NCBI RefSeq assembly: GCF_014274465.1
Contig: NZ_CP060394.1
Span: 5,828,001-5,892,000 of the forward strand
DNA: 64,000 bases
Source of the DNA: Alloacidobacterium dinghuense
GTDB taxonomy: Bacteria > Acidobacteriota > Terriglobia > Terriglobales > Acidobacteriaceae
Reading direction: 5' to 3'
Numbering within the stretch: position 1 is the first letter of the stretch; each line of letters begins with the position of its first letter. Of this stretch, positions 16,384-29,818 are shown piece by piece. Position numbers and translations under genes: made by a program. The notes beneath the pieces are model-generated. The model had not been told where the DNA came from, searched no databases, and saw nothing but the letters and a program-made list of their open reading frames with translations.

Positions 16384-16660
16384 ACACAAGCCAAATGAAG
16401 GATTATATGGACCCATCCCGCCTGCTTAAGGGGCGCGAGCAAGGTGGCACGTCGGTGCCCGACGCGCGGCTGAATATGATCCGCTGCGGTCTTTGACCTG
16501 TGCGGATGGGCCTACGGCAGTAAGGTTGGTCGCCTAGGGCGACCGCTTTATTCCGGGGACTGAAGTCCCCGGCTTTTACCTAGAGGCGCGTTGCGCCTCC
16601 TGATATTTTGGAATTTGCTTTTTGCTCGATGAGGCAGCCATGCGTTGGAAACTGGGACCG
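16384..16660 (+). repeat. Modular palindromic repeat, copy 1
   Basis: This copy has a degenerate hairpin arm (16384-16415, ACACAAGCCAAATGAAGG), then a module around 16436-16508 with GGTGGCACGTCGG and CCGCTGCGGTCTTTGACCT. A palindrome-rich module follows at 16509-16660: GGCCTACGGCAGTAAGG, GTCGCC-GGCGAC, GGGGACTGAAGTCCCC, GAGGCGC-GCGCCTC, then GCGTTGGAAACTGGGA. The same modules recur at 17797, 18070 and 21042. The DNA looks non-coding; short frames through it are not conserved in frame between copies. Confidence 0.8.
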
Positions 16661-16822: not shown

Positions 16823-17722
16823 ATGGCAACTGTACCGCCGCCTTTTGCGGCAAGAAATCGTCGCGAGAAAGCTTGGATCGAAGAAGACTTTCCATCCTCG
16901 GCACGTACTGGACTTCTTCACCTGTTGAACGAGGCGGTTGGCAAGGACTATCTTTCAGGCTGGCACATCGTCGCGAAGGAGCTTAGAAGAATTGCCAGAA
17001 CGCCCGTCCGAAACTATCGTCCCAATTACGTTCCAAGCATTGAACAGGCTGAGAAGGATGCCGAAACTTTCCTTAATCAGATCGGCTGGGAACAAGTCTA
17101 CGATTTCTGCGAACGACTTCACAGCCATCTTGTCCAAGGCACCGTCTACGAGCGGAACGACGAAGTGGTCACGATCACGAAAACGGAATCACAGCTGTTT
17201 ATTGCTGAGGAAATGCAGCGTCTGTTTGAAGAAGAGAGTCTGGGGTACGAGTTTAGAGATGGTTTAGTACAGCGGCGAGGAAAACGCCATATGATAGACC
17301 AAATTAACAAGGCGGAAAAGGCTTTGACTGACCTGAAATTGGAGGCTGCTCGAAAGCATTTTTCAAAAGCCCTTCGCCACTTCCGTGATCGTAAGAAACC
17401 CGACCATGAAAATGCAGTAAAGGAAGCTGTTTGTGCGGTGGAAGCGGCGGCGAAGGAGTTGTTTCCTGATGCCAAGGCTACGACCCTTGGGGACTTCGTC
17501 AAATGGGCGACTGCTAGCGAATCTAACTTAATGCCGAAAACGATTGGGCAGACATTCACCGGTCTATATGCGTTTCGTAACAGCGGCGAAGGGGTATCAC
17601 ACGGAGCTACGTCAGGCGGAATCGTAACGGCCGAGCTTTCTGAATACGTTCTCGGGATGGCGGCTTCTCAGGTAATCTTACTGGCCGATCTGGCAAAGGA
17701 CGATGAAGAGCCCCCGTTCTAA
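16823..17722 (+). CDS. Unknown protein with possible HEPN-like C-terminal region
   Basis: The 299-residue protein has no signal peptide or membrane segment. Residues about 1-55 and 90-165 are charged and helical. The C-terminal third (about 195-295) has ENAVKEAVCAVEAAAKELF, then LGDFVKWA, then LYAFRNSGEGVSHG. That layout, a helix with repeated Ala/Glu followed by an Arg-Asn...His-Gly motif, resembles the C-terminal regions of AbiJ/DUF7014-type and other HEPN-like proteins linked to phage defence; the Arg-to-His spacing is slightly longer than canonical. The gene stands alone between two repeat copies, and its base composition looks less GC-rich than its neighbours. Function is not known; defence is a hypothesis. 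Confidence 0.6.
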   Translation: MATVPPPFAARNRREKAWIEEDFPSSARTGLLHLLNEAVGKDYLSGWHIVAKELRRIARTPVRNYRPNYVPSIEQAEKDAETFLNQIGWEQVYDFCERLHSHLVQGTVYERNDEVVTITKTESQLFIAEEMQRLFEEESLGYEFRDGLVQRRGKRHMIDQINKAEKALTDLKLEAARKHFSKALRHFRDRKKPDHENAVKEAVCAVEAAAKELFPDAKATTLGDFVKWATASESNLMPKTIGQTFTGLYAFRNSGEGVSHGATSGGIVTAELSEYVLGMAASQVILLADLAKDDEEPPF

Positions 17723-17796: not shown

Positions 17797-17990
17797 TCCA
17801 CTTCGGCCTACGGCAGTGAGGTTGTCGCCTTTAGGCGACGCTTTATTCCGGGGACTGAAGTCCCCGGCTTTTACCGAGAGGCCGCTTGCGCCTCCCGGCA
17901 TTTGGAATTTGGTTTCTGCTGGAGGAAGCGGTCATGCGGTGGAAACTGGACTACCCCACACAAGCCAAAAGAAGGCTTGTATAGGCCACC
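17797..17990 (+). repeat. Modular palindromic repeat, copy 2
   Basis: This copy carries the palindrome module (GGCCTACGGCAGTGAGG, GTCGCC..GGCGAC, GGGGACTGAAGTCCCC, GCGCCTCC) and ends with an intact hairpin arm at 17955-17985. The stem CCCACACAAGCC pairs with GGCTTGTATAGG around the loop AAAAGAA. It follows the HEPN-like gene by about 75 bp. Confidence 0.85.
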
Positions 17991-18258: not shown

Positions 18259-18304
18259 GATCACCCCAGAACACGAACTCCGCGTGTTCCGGGGACCCCG
18301 ATCC
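18259..18304. repeat. Inserted hairpin module (second)
   Basis: The segment has GATCACCCCA, a stem GAACACG / CGTGTTC around AACTC, then CGGGGACCCCGATCC. It interrupts a palindrome that is continuous in repeat copies 1 and 2. The outer part matches the first inserted module while the stem differs. Confidence 0.65.
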
Positions 18305-18481
18305 GTCCCCGGCTCCTACCTAGAGGCGCTTTGCGCCCCCCCATATTTCGAAATTGCATTTTGCTGGAGGAAGCGGCCTTGCATTGGAAACTGGAACTGC
18401 CCCATACAAGCCAAAAGAAGGTGTAAAGTTCCACGAGATACTTTACAGTTTGTCTCCAGAGATTGTTTACAGTTTTGGATT

Positions 18482-19625
18482 TCAGAAGGGGTCTTCTATC
18501 CAGCGATCGACGATCGTCGATCGCTGGATAGAGAAGTCCAGTTCCCGGATCAGCGTGGTGCAGTAGTAGACCAGCACACGCTGCTCCACAGCCACGATCT
18601 GCACCCATTGCCGGTTCAGAGCGCGACTGAGATGCCACTGTTGCCCGCCTACCTGGAGTTTGCCGTCGGCGTCTACCTTGCGCAAGACCGCTCCCTCCGG
18701 ATACTCCCAGCCGGCCGGGTGGGGCTGATATTTCCGCCGACTCGGCTGCCATACCTTCGCCGGGGTTTTCATCCCCAGGGCTTCATGCGGCCGAAGATGG
18801 TTATATTCCCAGCGATAGTCATCCAGCCACTGCTGCGTGCGCTGCTCCCACAGGCGCCTCCTCTGGATGGAACGCAGCAGCGTGCCGTGGAAACGCTCCA
18901 CTTTGCCTTGTGTCTGCGGGTGCCGCACCCCGCTCCAGTACAGCCGGATCCCTTGCTGCATCAGCCAGACGGAGATCTTCGTCAGCCCCAGCGGGATCGC
19001 GGCCCCACCATGGAATGCCATGATCCATCAGCATCGCCTCCGGCACCCCGCAGCGCAGAAATGCCTCTTCCAACTGCTCGCGCACCGGCTCTGCCTGCGT
19101 GCTGCCCAGCGCCCGTAACCCGATCAGGTAGCGGCTATGATCATCGAGAATCGATAACGGACCCACTTCCTGATTCCATCCGCTCGGTCCCTTGAAGTCC
19201 ATCTGCCACAGCTCATTGGGATGGCTGCGCTCAAACCGCTGACAGCATCGGCTGCTCTGCAACCGATCGCGCACCAGATCGTGGCGGCGCAAGATGCGGT
19301 GGATCGTACTGGGCGGAAGTTGCTGGCCCGATCGCTCGAGCAGCACGCTCAACTTACGCGCTCCCCAATCCGGATACCGCCGCCGCAACGCCATCACCTG
19401 CTCTTCCAGCGACTCCCTGATCCGGGTCGGACTCGCATGCGGCTTCCGGCTCTGTTCTGCGATGCCTTCAAGACCTCCGCTACGATACCGTTTCCACCAC
19501 AAATACCCGGTCGGACGGGATACCCCGAACTCTTCACAGAGCCGGCTGAAAGGCTTCTCCCCGCGTGTCGCCGCGACTACAAACTCCACCCGCTGCTGCC
19601 GTACATCCATCGTCTTCCAGCCCAT
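18482..19625 (-). pseudogene. IS481-type transposase, frameshifted
   Basis: Aligned by eye with the intact transposase at 28207-29364, this gene starts MGWKTMDVRQQRV at 19625. It runs through a helix-turn-helix (RLCEEFGVSRPTGYLWWKR) and the first DDE motifs (ELWQMDFKG, LDDHSRY) to MLMDHGIPWW near 19010. Reading then shifts to a second frame, ending at 18482, that carries the remaining DDE part (HPQTQGKVERFHG, YRWEYNHLRPHEALGM). The shift falls at a run of four G near 19008. Compared with the intact copy about two residues are also lost there, so a deletion rather than programmed slippage is more likely. IS481 transposases normally are one frame. Confidence 0.85.
18495..18532. repeat. Perfect 38-bp palindrome in IS copy 1
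   Basis: The half-site TCTATCCAGCGATCGACGA is followed by its exact reverse complement. It lies within the transposase coding end, encoding IQRSTIVDRWI. The matching site in the other element is at 29308-29339 and differs by two paired changes. Confidence 0.95.
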
Positions 19626-19630
19626 CTCGC

Positions 19631-19673
19631 CTTTACACTCCGCCGCTCGCTGCGCTCGCCGCGGAGTGTAAAG
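19631..19673 (-). repeat. Hairpin before the transposase start, IS copy 1
   Basis: A perfect 13-bp stem (CTTTACACTCCGC with GCGGAGTGTAAAG) flanks a 17-nt GC-rich loop. It ends 5 bp before the transposase ATG at 19625, so in mRNA it could limit access to the ribosome site. The intact element has a 10-bp stem at the same place with a different sequence. Confidence 0.75.
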
Positions 19674-19954
19674 GATGTCCGGAGACATTTTGTAAAGCAT
19701 GTCATGAAACTGAACACCAAAACCAGGCTTGTATGGGCCACCCGGCCACCCCGCCTAAATAACTTTGGTCCGCGTACCGCGGCAACGCTCGCTTACTGTG
19801 ATGTATTGACCATACAAAAGAGCAAGGGGAATCCTGGGAGTGCCGGCATTCATCTCTTGATTGTTGAGAGTTTGCCCTGAGGCCTGGCGGATTCGACGCT
19901 GGATGGAAGGGCGAGCCGAAGAATCAATGCTTGCAATCAACCGGAGATGACACT

Positions 19955-21037
19955 ATGAAAGCAACCCAGACCCTCCACAATCTCGGTCAGAGCCTTTGGC
20001 TCGACAACATCACTCGCGACATTCTGAATAACGGCACTCTGAAGCGATACGTAGACGAATTTTCGGTTACGGGCCTTACTTCCAACCCGACCATCTTCGA
20101 ACACGCGATTTCCAAGAGCGCTTCCTACGACGAGGATATTGTCGGGTTCAACGAGCAAGGGGTACACGACGAGGCGCTGTTCTTTGAGCTCGCGCTGCAG
20201 GACCTGAGAAGAGCGGCAGACCTGTTCTTGTCTGCGCACACACGCACCAATGGCGTTGACGGGTACGTTTCACTTGAACTCTCGCCGCGACTGGCGTACG
20301 ACACGAAGGCATCTGTCGCCTCCGCCAAAGAATTGCACGCTAAAGCCAACCGCCCGAATTTGTTTATTAAGATTCCTGGCACTAAAGAAGGAAATCCAGC
20401 CATTGAAGAGTCGATCTTCTCGAGTGTTCCCATCAATGTGACCTTACTGTTTTCCGCCGATCACTACGTCGCTTCCGCAGAAGCGTACATGCGTGGTATC
20501 GAAAGGCGAATCGATGCAGGCCTGTCTCCGAATGTTCGGTCGGTGGCGTCGGTGTTCCTGAGCCGCTGGGACAAGGCAACGATGGATAAGGCGCCAAGCG
20601 AGCTGCGAAACAAGCTGGGCATCGCGGTTGGTCAACAGGTGTACAAAGCCTATCGAGACATTCTGGATTCCGACCGGTGGCAAAGACTGGCGAACTTCGG
20701 GGCTCAAGCGCAACGCCTTCTGTTTGCCAGCACCGGCACAAAGGATCCGAAAGCGTCCGATATTCTCTATGTTTCAGCGCTCGCAGCTCCAAACACGATC
20801 GATACCATGCCGGAGGAAACTTTGGTGGCGTTCCATGACCACGGGGTAGTGAAGGGATCGATGCCGCGTGATGGTGGTGACTTCAAGACGGTTCTCGACG
20901 GGTTTCAGAAGGCGGGCATCGACCTTACAAAGCTGGCTGCCGATTTGCAATCGGACGGCGCGAAGTCTTTCGACAAGTCGTGGGACAGTTTGCTGCAGAC
21001 GATCCAGTCGAAGAGCGAAAGCCTGCAGACAAAATGA
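19955..21037 (+). CDS. tal: Transaldolase
   Basis: The enzyme moves a dihydroxyacetone unit between sugar phosphates in the pentose phosphate pathway. I use the ATG at 19955 behind CCGGAG, because MKATQTLHNLGQSLWLDNI is the usual start; the TTG at 19931 adds only eight residues. Family motifs are TGLTSNPTIFEHAI near residue 38, the Schiff-base Lys in NLFIKIPGT near 130, and NVTLLFSADHY near 160. At 360 residues it is of the longer Tal type often seen in actinobacteria and acidobacteria. It lies between IS copy 1 and repeat copy 4 with no operon partners. Confidence 0.95.
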   Translation: MKATQTLHNLGQSLWLDNITRDILNNGTLKRYVDEFSVTGLTSNPTIFEHAISKSASYDEDIVGFNEQGVHDEALFFELALQDLRRAADLFLSAHTRTNGVDGYVSLELSPRLAYDTKASVASAKELHAKANRPNLFIKIPGTKEGNPAIEESIFSSVPINVTLLFSADHYVASAEAYMRGIERRIDAGLSPNVRSVASVFLSRWDKATMDKAPSELRNKLGIAVGQQVYKAYRDILDSDRWQRLANFGAQAQRLLFASTGTKDPKASDILYVSALAAPNTIDTMPEETLVAFHDHGVVKGSMPRDGGDFKTVLDGFQKAGIDLTKLAADLQSDGAKSFDKSWDSLLQTIQSKSESLQTK

Positions 21038-21041
21038 AGGG

Positions 21042-21195
21042 TGGTCCGGGGACTGAAGTTTCCGGCTTCTACTTGGAGCCGCTTTGCGCTTTTTGGTATT
21101 TAGACTTTGCTTTTTGCAGCAGGAAGCGGCCATGCGTTGGAAATTGGGGACAATCCCACACAAGCCAAAAGAAGGCTTGTATGGGGCACCCCCGC
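21042..21195 (+). repeat. Modular palindromic repeat, copy 4 (partial)
   Basis: Only the last part of the palindrome module is present (GGGGACTGAAGTTTCC, GGAAGCGGCCATGCGTTGG). It is followed by an intact hairpin arm at 21155-21185 (CCCACACAAGCC, loop AAAAGAA, GGCTTGTATGGG; one mismatch in 12 pairs). It sits between the convergent tal and DedA-rhodanese genes and may also act as a transcription block. Confidence 0.85.
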
Positions 21196-28095: not shown

Positions 28096-28114
28096 CCCAC
28101 ACAAGCCAAAAGAA
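28096..28114 (+). repeat. Left half of hairpin arm, interrupted by IS copy 2
   Basis: CCCACACAAGCCAAAAGAA matches the stem and loop of the arms at 17955 and 21155. The element at 28115 starts immediately after the loop. The remainder (AGCTTGAGTGAGCC) continues at 29423 after a second copy of AAAAGAA. Confidence 0.85.
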
Positions 28115-28162
28115 TGTTCAGTGCCATGACATGCTTTCCAGGATGTTTCTAGTCATCCTTTA

Positions 28163-28197
28163 CACTCCCTGCGCGAGCGAAGCGAGAGCAGGGAGTG
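28163..28197 (+). repeat. Hairpin before the transposase start, IS copy 2
   Basis: A perfect 10-bp stem (CACTCCCTGC with GCAGGGAGTG) around a 15-nt loop ends 9 bp before the ATG at 28207. The equivalent stem in copy 1 has a different inner sequence but is also perfectly paired. Confidence 0.75.
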
Positions 28198-28206
28198 AGA
28201 CTGAGG

Positions 28207-29364
28207 ATGCCTTGGAAGACGATGGACGTGCGGGAACAGCGGGTGCGGTTTGTGGTGGCGGCGTTGCGCCGTGAGCGGAGCTTGAGCAGCTTATGCCGGG
28301 AGTTTGGCATCTCGCGTCCAACTGGGCGGCTGTGGGTCGAGCGCTATCGGGCTGGCGGGGTGGAAGCCATCGCGGAACGCAGCCGACGCCCCCTGCACAG
28401 TCCACAGCAGACCGCGCCGGAGGTGGAAGGGCGTGTGATCGAGCTACGCCTCCGCTATCCCGACTGGGGTGCGCGCAAACTGCAGGTATTGCTCGAGCAA
28501 TGCGGGACACGTTTGCCCGCAAGCACCATCCATCGCATTCTGCTGCGCCATCAACTGGTGCGCCCCGAGGACCGGCATCGCCCCGCGCCCAGGCGCTTCG
28601 AGCGGGCCGCGCCCAACGAGCTGTGGCAGATGGATTTCAAGGGTCCCAAGTCGTGGCACCAGCCGATCGGACCGCTTTCCATCCTGGATGATCACAGCCG
28701 TTATGTGATCGCGCTGGAGGCGGTGGGCAGCACCCAGGCCGAGCCGGTCCGTGTGCGGCTGGAGCATGCCTTTCAAGAGTGCGGTCTGCCCGAGGCCATG
28801 CTGATGGATCACGGCGTGCCCTGGTGGAGTTGGGCCGGACCACAGGCGGCGACGACAGGACTGGCGCTGTGGCTGATCAAACAGGGCATACGCCTCTGCT
28901 GGAGCGGCATCGGGCATCCGCAGACGCAAGGCAAGGTGGAGCGCTTTCACGGCGCGCTGGAACGCGCGCTCACCCGGCGTGGACTGCGTGGCCACGCGCC
29001 CCAGCAGTGGCTGGACCGCTATCGCTGGGAGCACAACCATCTGCGTCCGCACGAAGCCCTGGGCATGCAGACTCCAGCCAGCCGCTGGCGCCCCAGTGAG
29101 CGGCGCTACGATCCCAACCCGCCGCGCTGGCAGTACCCCGAGGGAGCCTGGGTACTGAAGGTCGACTGTCAAGGCAAGCTGGAGATCGCCGATACCAAGT
29201 GGCGCATCGGTCGCGCTCTGGCCGGTGAATGGGTGCAGATCCTCCCTGTCGAACAGCGGCTCCAGGTCTATTACTGCAACACCCTGATCCGGGAACTCGA
29301 TCCCGCCATCCAACGCTCGACGATCGTCGAGCGTTGGATACCAGCTCAAAACCCTCGACCCTAA
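28207..29364 (+). CDS. IS481-family transposase
   Basis: The 385-residue DDE transposase begins MPWKTMDVREQRV at the ATG at 28207; a GTG at 28195 is possible. A helix-turn-helix lies near residues 25-50 (LCREFGISRPTGRLWVERY), and a second helical domain follows (YPDWGARKLQVLLEQ). The rve catalytic core carries ELWQMDFKG with the first Asp, MLMDHGVPWW with the second, and QTQGKVERFHGAL with the Glu. YRWEHNHLRPHEALGMQTPA is the usual IS481 tail motif. It catalyses cut-and-paste transposition of the surrounding element. It appears functional. Confidence 0.95.
   Translation: MPWKTMDVREQRVRFVVAALRRERSLSSLCREFGISRPTGRLWVERYRAGGVEAIAERSRRPLHSPQQTAPEVEGRVIELRLRYPDWGARKLQVLLEQCGTRLPASTIHRILLRHQLVRPEDRHRPAPRRFERAAPNELWQMDFKGPKSWHQPIGPLSILDDHSRYVIALEAVGSTQAEPVRVRLEHAFQECGLPEAMLMDHGVPWWSWAGPQAATTGLALWLIKQGIRLCWSGIGHPQTQGKVERFHGALERALTRRGLRGHAPQQWLDRYRWEHNHLRPHEALGMQTPASRWRPSERRYDPNPPRWQYPEGAWVLKVDCQGKLEIADTKWRIGRALAGEWVQILPVEQRLQVYYCNTLIRELDPAIQRSTIVERWIPAQNPRP
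29308..29339. repeat. Perfect 32-bp palindrome in IS copy 2
   Basis: The half-site ATCCAACGCTCGACGA is followed by its exact reverse complement, inside the codons for IQRSTIVERWI. Compared with copy 1 two bases in each arm differ, and each change is mirrored in the other arm. Confidence 0.95.
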
Positions 29365-29422
29365 CTGGAAAGAATGTCCAGAGACAAACTGCAAACGATG
29401 TCGTGTAACTTGACAAAAAGAA

Positions 29423-29818
29423 AGCTTGAGTGAGCCAATCCCCGGCGGTCAAACTGGCGATCGAGGACTTTGATCGCGAATTCCTTGGAATAGCTGCGTG
29501 TCGTGAATCGGCCGTCATCGCTGAGATTCTTCGCTACGACTACGGCTCCGCTCAGAAATGACGGCGAACTTTCGGTGTAGGCTCTGATGAATTGCTTAGC
29601 AGGGCTGAGTCTTAGACTGGCTCTCTTTCGTATTAAAATTAGATGAAATCGGTTTGTCCGGTGAGGGTTGCAATTTTGCGACGCAAACCTTGAGCGGCAC
29701 ATCGAAGAAATAGGGTTGCAACATCCCCGTGGGTTGGGCGGCATCGCAGCGAATCCACTGCAACCGTGATTGCTTTCAACATCCCCGTCCACATTTGGAC
29801 TGAAGGCGGAAAAGGGAC
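29423..29818. other. Non-coding gap before nadA with repeat fragments
   Basis: No gene is supported. The first bases are the end of the interrupted hairpin arm. A dispersed repeat (TCGCTGAGATTCTTCG ... CTCAGAAATGACG) lies at 29515-29563. The 12-mer CAACATCCCCGT occurs at 29719-29730 and 29777-29788, shortly upstream of nadA, and could be a regulator site or chance. Confidence 0.5.
29515..29563. repeat. Dispersed CGCTGAGATTCTTCG repeat, copy 1
   Basis: The segment TCATCGCTGAGATTCTTCG ends with CTCAGAAATGACG. Related sequences occur at 31471-31520 and 32783-32826, always between genes. Confidence 0.65.

Follow-up and report, generated by a model that had tools for sequence, protein, structure and literature searches.

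The window, by which we mean the whole 64,000-nt stretch analysed here, belongs to the single-contig genome of Alloacidobacterium dinghuense (6,271,114 bp; G000 below, our source genome). It carries an intact insertion sequence, element A, set in the loop of a hairpin, together with a diverged relative, element B, and with copies of the same hairpin that are empty:

16386–16406, degenerate empty hairpin with 3 mismatches
17960–17980, empty hairpin ACAAGCC-AAAAGAA-GGCTTGT, exact 21-mer
18422–19716, minus strand, IS481-family element B, diverged, transposase frame broken, in another copy of the same hairpin
18495–18532, 38-bp spacer-less palindrome inside element B, present likewise in the intact copy L005
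21160–21180, empty hairpin ACAAGCC-AAAAGAA-GGCTTGT, exact 21-mer
28096–28107, plus strand, left arm of the target hairpin (CCCACACAAGCC), directly outside the element A duplication
28108–28114, plus strand, left copy of the 7-bp target duplication, equal to the loop AAAAGAA
28115–29415, plus strand, IS481-family element A, 1301 bp, 4 identical copies in the genome
28207–29364, plus strand, element A transposase, 385 aa, NCBIfam transpos_IS481 at 245 bits (cut-off 224)
29308–29339, 32-bp perfect palindrome without spacer in the element A transposase gene
29416–29422, plus strand, right copy of the 7-bp target duplication, equal to the loop AAAAGAA
29423–29436, plus strand, right arm of the target hairpin, decayed (AGCTTGAGTGAGCC)

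Element A begins with TGTTCAGT and ends with ACTTGACA, and its transposase is intact, with HTH and rve domains. The IS481 family is characterised by imperfect terminal inverted repeats of the TGT...ACA type, a single ORF and a size of about 1–1.3 kb, and the elements described here share these ends, the single ORF and the size. The family profile gives 245.4 bits for element A, above the NCBIfam cut-off of 224, and 254.9 bits for intact copies of element B. The intact element B transposase is 64% identical in protein to that of element A, and the DNA of the two elements is 69% identical.

The original prediction placed element A in the loop of a dispersed hairpin, with a 7-bp target duplication equal to that loop, and these coordinates hold to the base. 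The arm 3' of 29422 is decayed (AGCTTGAGTGAG), and this site, L001, reaches a stem score of 6, where the score is the best stem between the left and right flanks and the cut is set at 7. The further repeat copies that had been pointed out are the two exact 21-mers, and the element starting at 18422 does lie in another copy of the hairpin, in reverse orientation and with unlike flanking loops (CCAAAAGAAGG / CCAAAACCAGG) and no exact duplication. The neighbourhood also contains a longer dispersed repeat (16552–16654, 17847–17949, 18292–18394 and 21045–21147, starting with CCGGGGACTGAAG or similar), and at three of its four copies the hairpin forms the tail.

The source genome holds four identical copies of element A; element B also has four there, and three of these are identical to one another. 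All eight sit in the CAAGCC...GGCTTG hairpin, while their outer flanks are unlike. The two circumstances that had been named as counting against hairpin targeting, namely that most copies lie in unrelated sequence or that the insertions in the window are one event followed by copying of the locus, are thus not found, since eight out of eight copies occupy the hairpin and do so at unlike loci. Intact CAAGCC-N3-12-GGCTTG sites number 14 in this genome, against 7 for a reversed control pattern; the CAAGCC type is rare there, with about five intact copies beside the eight occupied ones. At L001 and L002 the element A duplication equals the 7-nt loop, which reads AAAAGAA at the former and TTCTTTT at the latter; seen from the element, the target loop can face either way. 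In element B the duplication takes in the loop and, on each side, two bases of the stem, and the identical copies of this element show 10 bp at L005 (6-nt loop) and 11 bp at L006 and L007 (7-nt loops). The remaining three copies, L003, L004 and L008, have unlike loops on their two sides. Syntenic empty sites for these copies were not seen in genomes of the same genus, where the larger matches were patches of about 67–81% identity.

Relatives were collected from two sources, and loci that recurred between them were counted once. A protein search of 300 genomes of the family gave a match at E ≤ 1e-80 in 19 of them, with at most 6 candidates scored per genome, which undercounts the copies there. 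A scan of GTDB contigs gave 201 relatives and was narrowed to the best 80; 41 of these 80 were counted, and 39 were dropped, either the flank being cut by the contig end or the element ends being impossible to place. Also excluded were L158 (a near copy of L157), L155 and L163 (truncated), L226–L230 and L234 (ends not placed) and L049 (no right end). Flanks were inspected by eye and by script. The two ISRm20 insertions L161 and L162, which represent one site, were both counted.

Among the 77 two-sided loci, 61 have a stem score of at least 7, each copy being counted singly and the loci being not fully independent. By group, the cut was reached at 35 of 41 loci in Acidobacteriaceae, at 6/6 in the sister group and at 20/30 in the wider, mostly proteobacterial set. 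In a null of 3104 flank pairs taken from different genomes such scores arise in 5.6%, and among 6000 draws at random positions 2.0% attain 7 on a related score. Three control IS481 elements outside the group (G346, G336 and type C of the source genome) lack the habit: their 15 copies gave no hairpin, with scores of 1 to 5 (61/77 versus 0/15, Fisher 4.6e-9 with copies counted singly). These three elements are the whole control set, and the ends of G336 and of type C were placed only by where the copies stop matching. In G346 7-bp duplications are visible in 5 of 9 copies. Chance was considered as an explanation and is ruled out by the null, by these controls and by the empty sites described below.

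The 16 insertions of the 77 that fall under the stem cut are heterogeneous. They include L001 with its decayed arm, four hybrids in which each half is REP-like (L052, L063, L245 and L246), and six sites with short or imperfect stems (L086, L109, L118, L139, L157 and L232). The last five, L103, L120, L156, L231 and L233, have clean duplications and no visible hairpin, and because of them the targeting is not absolute. L156 and L231–L233 are located on plasmids.

The targets of the relatives are other palindromes, such as GGCACGGC-TNNA-GCCGTGCC, GGGCAGGGT-TNNA-ACCCTGCCC, CCCATGTCTC-AGAAGC-GAGACATGGG, ATCGCCCGG-TCAAG-CCGGGCGAT and more, and the stem sequences vary widely between them. The proposal that the transposase goes for the hairpin thus stands for all eight copies in the source genome, but across the family the AAAAGAA hairpin is not a shared target. 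In G128, a complete genome, one REP type, GGCAYGGC-TNNA-GCCRTGCC, holds all 14 copies that were found, the left arm of the REP being shortened at L251. Here the stems covary on both arms (e.g. GGCATGGC/GCCATGCC at L242), and exact 8-bp duplications are present at 8 of the 14 sites, with unlike or inverted loops at the other six (L239, L244–L246, L248 and L251). The same genome retains 52 perfect REP sites, two of the 50 listed having unlike loops.

Sinorhizobium meliloti provides empty sites at the strain level. An exact duplication of the 5-nt loop in ATCCCTGTG-N5-CACAGGGAT is seen at four copies of ISRm20 and at one relative with 82% identity. Where strains AK21 and KH46 carry ISRm20 with this loop duplicated, pSymB of strains 1021 and 2011 keeps the intact hairpin; the joined flanks of KH46 and AK21 match 2011 and 1021 pSymB over their full length, at 97.8% and 99.8%, with one hairpin and one loop. 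In two strains of this species ISRm20 occupies one and the same REP but points in opposite directions (L161 in HM006, L162 in AK21).

We read the targeted palindromes as REP elements because three of the targeted types adjoin genes of Y1 transposases (RAYT-like). In G105 a Y1_Tnp gene has CCCACTCAAGCC hairpins upstream of it, within it and at its end. The two Y1_Tnp genes found in the source genome are preceded by hairpins of the CCCAGGTCTC and GGCACGGCT types and have them at their 3' ends as well; these hairpins resemble the targets of L065/L067 and of G128. CAAGCC (G105) and GGCACGG and GAGAC (source genome) would accordingly be RAYT-associated REPs, the RAYT label being our reading of the Pfam Y1_Tnp domain in combination with the REPs. 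As a separate observation, a Y1_Tnp (RAYT-like) gene (L235, 1462–2013) lies about 1 kb from the IS copy L004 in the source genome.

The duplications are direct wherever they are present, insertions occur in both orientations, and exact duplications range from 4 to 11 bp across the elements. At 33 loci that combine a direct repeat (exact or with one mismatch) with a stem score of at least 7, the midpoint of the repeat coincides with the dyad in 23; it is displaced by half a base in 1 and by 2 to 7 bases in 9. That the duplication follows the loop is indicated by three full sites of one element (element B) and by half-sites. In G128, 4-nt loops make up 19 of 20 used sites (8 whole sites and 12 half-sites, two of the 20 sharing a flank) versus 27 of 47 among those empty REPs on the list whose loops have 4 or 5 nt (p=0.003; 50 of the 52 empty sites were listed, and they were counted for the perfect GGCACGGC stem only, while some occupied sites have variant stems). 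At the lone 5-nt half-site of this genome the cut is still 2 bp inside the stem.

Taken together, we consider it probable, at about 0.8, that a large group within the IS481 family has a transposase directed at palindromes of the REP type, for the most part at their dyad axis, with the arms serving as half-sites that place the cuts. The transposase assembly would read the two arms of the hairpin, presumably in duplex DNA, as two half-sites, and each strand would be cut at a set distance from its own arm, which for element A and ISRm20 puts the cut at the loop's edge and for element B and the G128 element two bp into the stem. Staggered cutting followed by ordinary strand transfer may then duplicate the DNA between the cuts. 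If the arms place the cuts in this manner, the dyad is the centre of the duplication, and longer loops give longer duplications.

The original prediction had raised the possibility that the hairpin is recognised in an extruded or single-stranded form. Under such a mechanism the transposase would recognise an extruded hairpin or cruciform and cut each loop at its base, and the duplication would equal the loop because the hairpins of both strands are cut alike. This agrees with the duplications of element A and ISRm20 and with the loop-following ones of element B; four tested targets fold well as single DNA strands (z of -3.5 to -8.6), and the wide variation of stems between relatives, with both arms changing in step within G128, points in the same direction. 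Symmetric half-sites in duplex DNA, however, predict the same, and one hairpin type is chosen per genome: in the source genome nine perfect GGCACGGC hairpins are intact and unoccupied by elements A and B, all copies of which are on CAAGCC. Extrusion is in our opinion the strongest of the competing explanations, though an unlikely one. A broader view, in which a whole IS481 group senses palindrome structure, possibly on extruded hairpins, with arms that place the cuts separately, a duplication that follows the loop without a fixed length and the internal palindrome described below as a part of the same recognition system, appears to us somewhat more doubtful.

Two simpler explanations can be given little credit. 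REPs are mostly intergenic, and insertions there are expected to be mild, so random insertion might leave survivors only in neutral intergenic repeats; this fails on the base-exact centring on the dyad, on the restriction of 14/14 copies to one REP type and on the position of all 15 control copies outside hairpins, and we regard it as very improbable. The arms might, on the other hand, be a part of the mobile element and travel along with it, the flanks then being no target at all, as the single arm type shared by all copies in the source genome could suggest. Yet identical copies have different arms and loops, G128 contains its 52 intact sites, and other strains of S. meliloti have the hairpin intact at the very loci in question, which refutes this idea; we rate it marginally lower still.

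The unlike loops deserve separate consideration. L003 and L004 are 112 kb apart, in opposite orientation, and carry near-perfect reciprocal halves; inversion of the segment between them would give two sites with matching loops, one of them with one mismatch, as recombination between copies predicts. A sister genome with either order of these flanks was not found among the same-genus genomes compared. Alternatively, the insertion itself may produce unlike or inverted loops, the two ends attacking different REPs or the two hairpins of a cruciform. Such loops are frequent (3/8 copies in the source genome and 6/14 in G128), the sets of left and right loops among the G128 hybrids look unbalanced by eye for simple reciprocal exchange, and in P. 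fluorescens SBW25 a new IS481 copy is described as inserted at a REP without a duplication, together with a 60-kb duplication (PMC11708052). The L003/L004 pair speaks against this explanation, and Tobes and Pareja ascribe the hybrid repeats of ISRm22 to recombination (PMC1525189). We therefore judge later recombination between copies to be the better account, and an origin at insertion to be rather improbable.

The transposase genes themselves contain a palindrome. When 29 elements of the Acidobacteriaceae group were tried, 24 could be placed on the RELD motif, and 19 of these 24 have a spacer-less palindrome near the 3' end of the gene, with arms of 16–23 bp (14 perfect, 5 with one mismatch). 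The distance from its centre to the beginning of the Arg codon is 34 nt, and a free search for the centre arrived at this offset for all 14 of the 14 palindromes scoring at least 10. Across the 19 elements, 17 of the 20 pairs change on both sides, in 93 cells versus 24 in shuffles; the 19 palindromes were chosen by at least 11 of 12 inner pairs, and the 8 outer pairs were not used for choosing. Cells of the G-U type are one among 380, with none in the 8 outer pairs. The near absence of wobble pairs and a constraint that reaches the very centre speak for a palindrome that acts as duplex DNA rather than as RNA. As a guess, it may be a putative dimer site for the transposase or for a host protein. 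We also considered it as a mimic of the target REP and rejected this, its similarity to the element's own target being 7.47 versus 7.44 for the targets of other elements (15 elements). The palindrome is missing from L068, L069, L070, L072 and L074, four of which still reach the target stem cut.

Insertion into REPs has been described for the IS3, IS110, IS4, IS256 and IS5 families, with ISRm22 (IS4), ISPsy8 and IS1397/ISKpn1 (IS3) and ISPpu9/10, ISPa11 and ISRm19 (IS110) as examples; IS481 is absent from the text of that paper (PMC1525189). Like the elements studied here, those IS copies interrupt REPs, and ISRm22 duplicates 6 bp at the axis of palindromy and has hybrid repeats, but ISRm22, ISPsy8 and the others have transposases of other families (PMC1525189). 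For the IS481 family, REP targeting was described in 2024 for an element of Pseudomonas fluorescens SBW25 (PMC11708052); this concerns one strain, and section 8 of that paper treats neither the loop geometry nor other IS481 elements. Among the listed open-licence matches for IS481 with REP, RAYT, stem-loop or palindrome nothing beyond SBW25 was found, and in PMC6209633 REP means replication regions. ISRm20 of S. meliloti, which duplicates the exact 5-nt loop, and ISEc19/yagA of E. coli are named IS481 elements and sequence relatives of ours, and REP targeting was not found for them in the titles and abstracts of most of the papers listed for these names. The control elements have the IS481 transposase in common with the group but differ from it in their 0/15 copies in hairpins. 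As far as the searched literature goes, the breadth of the group, the controls, the strain-level empty sites of ISRm20, the centring on the dyad and the loop-following duplication appear to be new.

These data suggest that REP palindromes are the standing target of an IS481 group that crosses phyla, and not of a single oddity. Elements that home to dispersed, mostly intergenic hairpins would spread cheaply and could seed inversions between REPs. The combination of identical transposases, varied loop lengths and known empty sites offers a clean system for studying palindrome recognition by a DDE transposase and the way in which its stagger is set. The group, with relatives in several bacterial phyla, is also a naturally occurring case of mobile DNA directed at a single type of site. 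In a FastTree phylogeny of 91 transposases the strict hairpin label has to change 10 times, and shuffled labels come as low in 62 of 500 trials; the label appears hardly more clustered on the tree than shuffled labels, and the tree is useful for grouping. Given these 10 changes, we make no claim that the trait arose only once.

A predicted structure of the element A transposase (14 sequences in the alignment) has a mean pLDDT of 61, the N-terminal helical part and the C-terminal beta domain being better predicted. Foldseek ranks IS21 IstA and TnsB first, and since the whole-length fits are poor (TM 0.13–0.20), only the order of the domains is taken from the model. Elsewhere in the window, a protein with an AbiJ N-terminal domain 4, a domain of phage-defence type, is encoded at 16823–17722 and adjoins the repeat cluster. 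The ORF at 19931–21037, transaldolase-like by eye, has over nearly its whole length a second copy, 88% identical in DNA, at 5240011–5241111 of the source genome.
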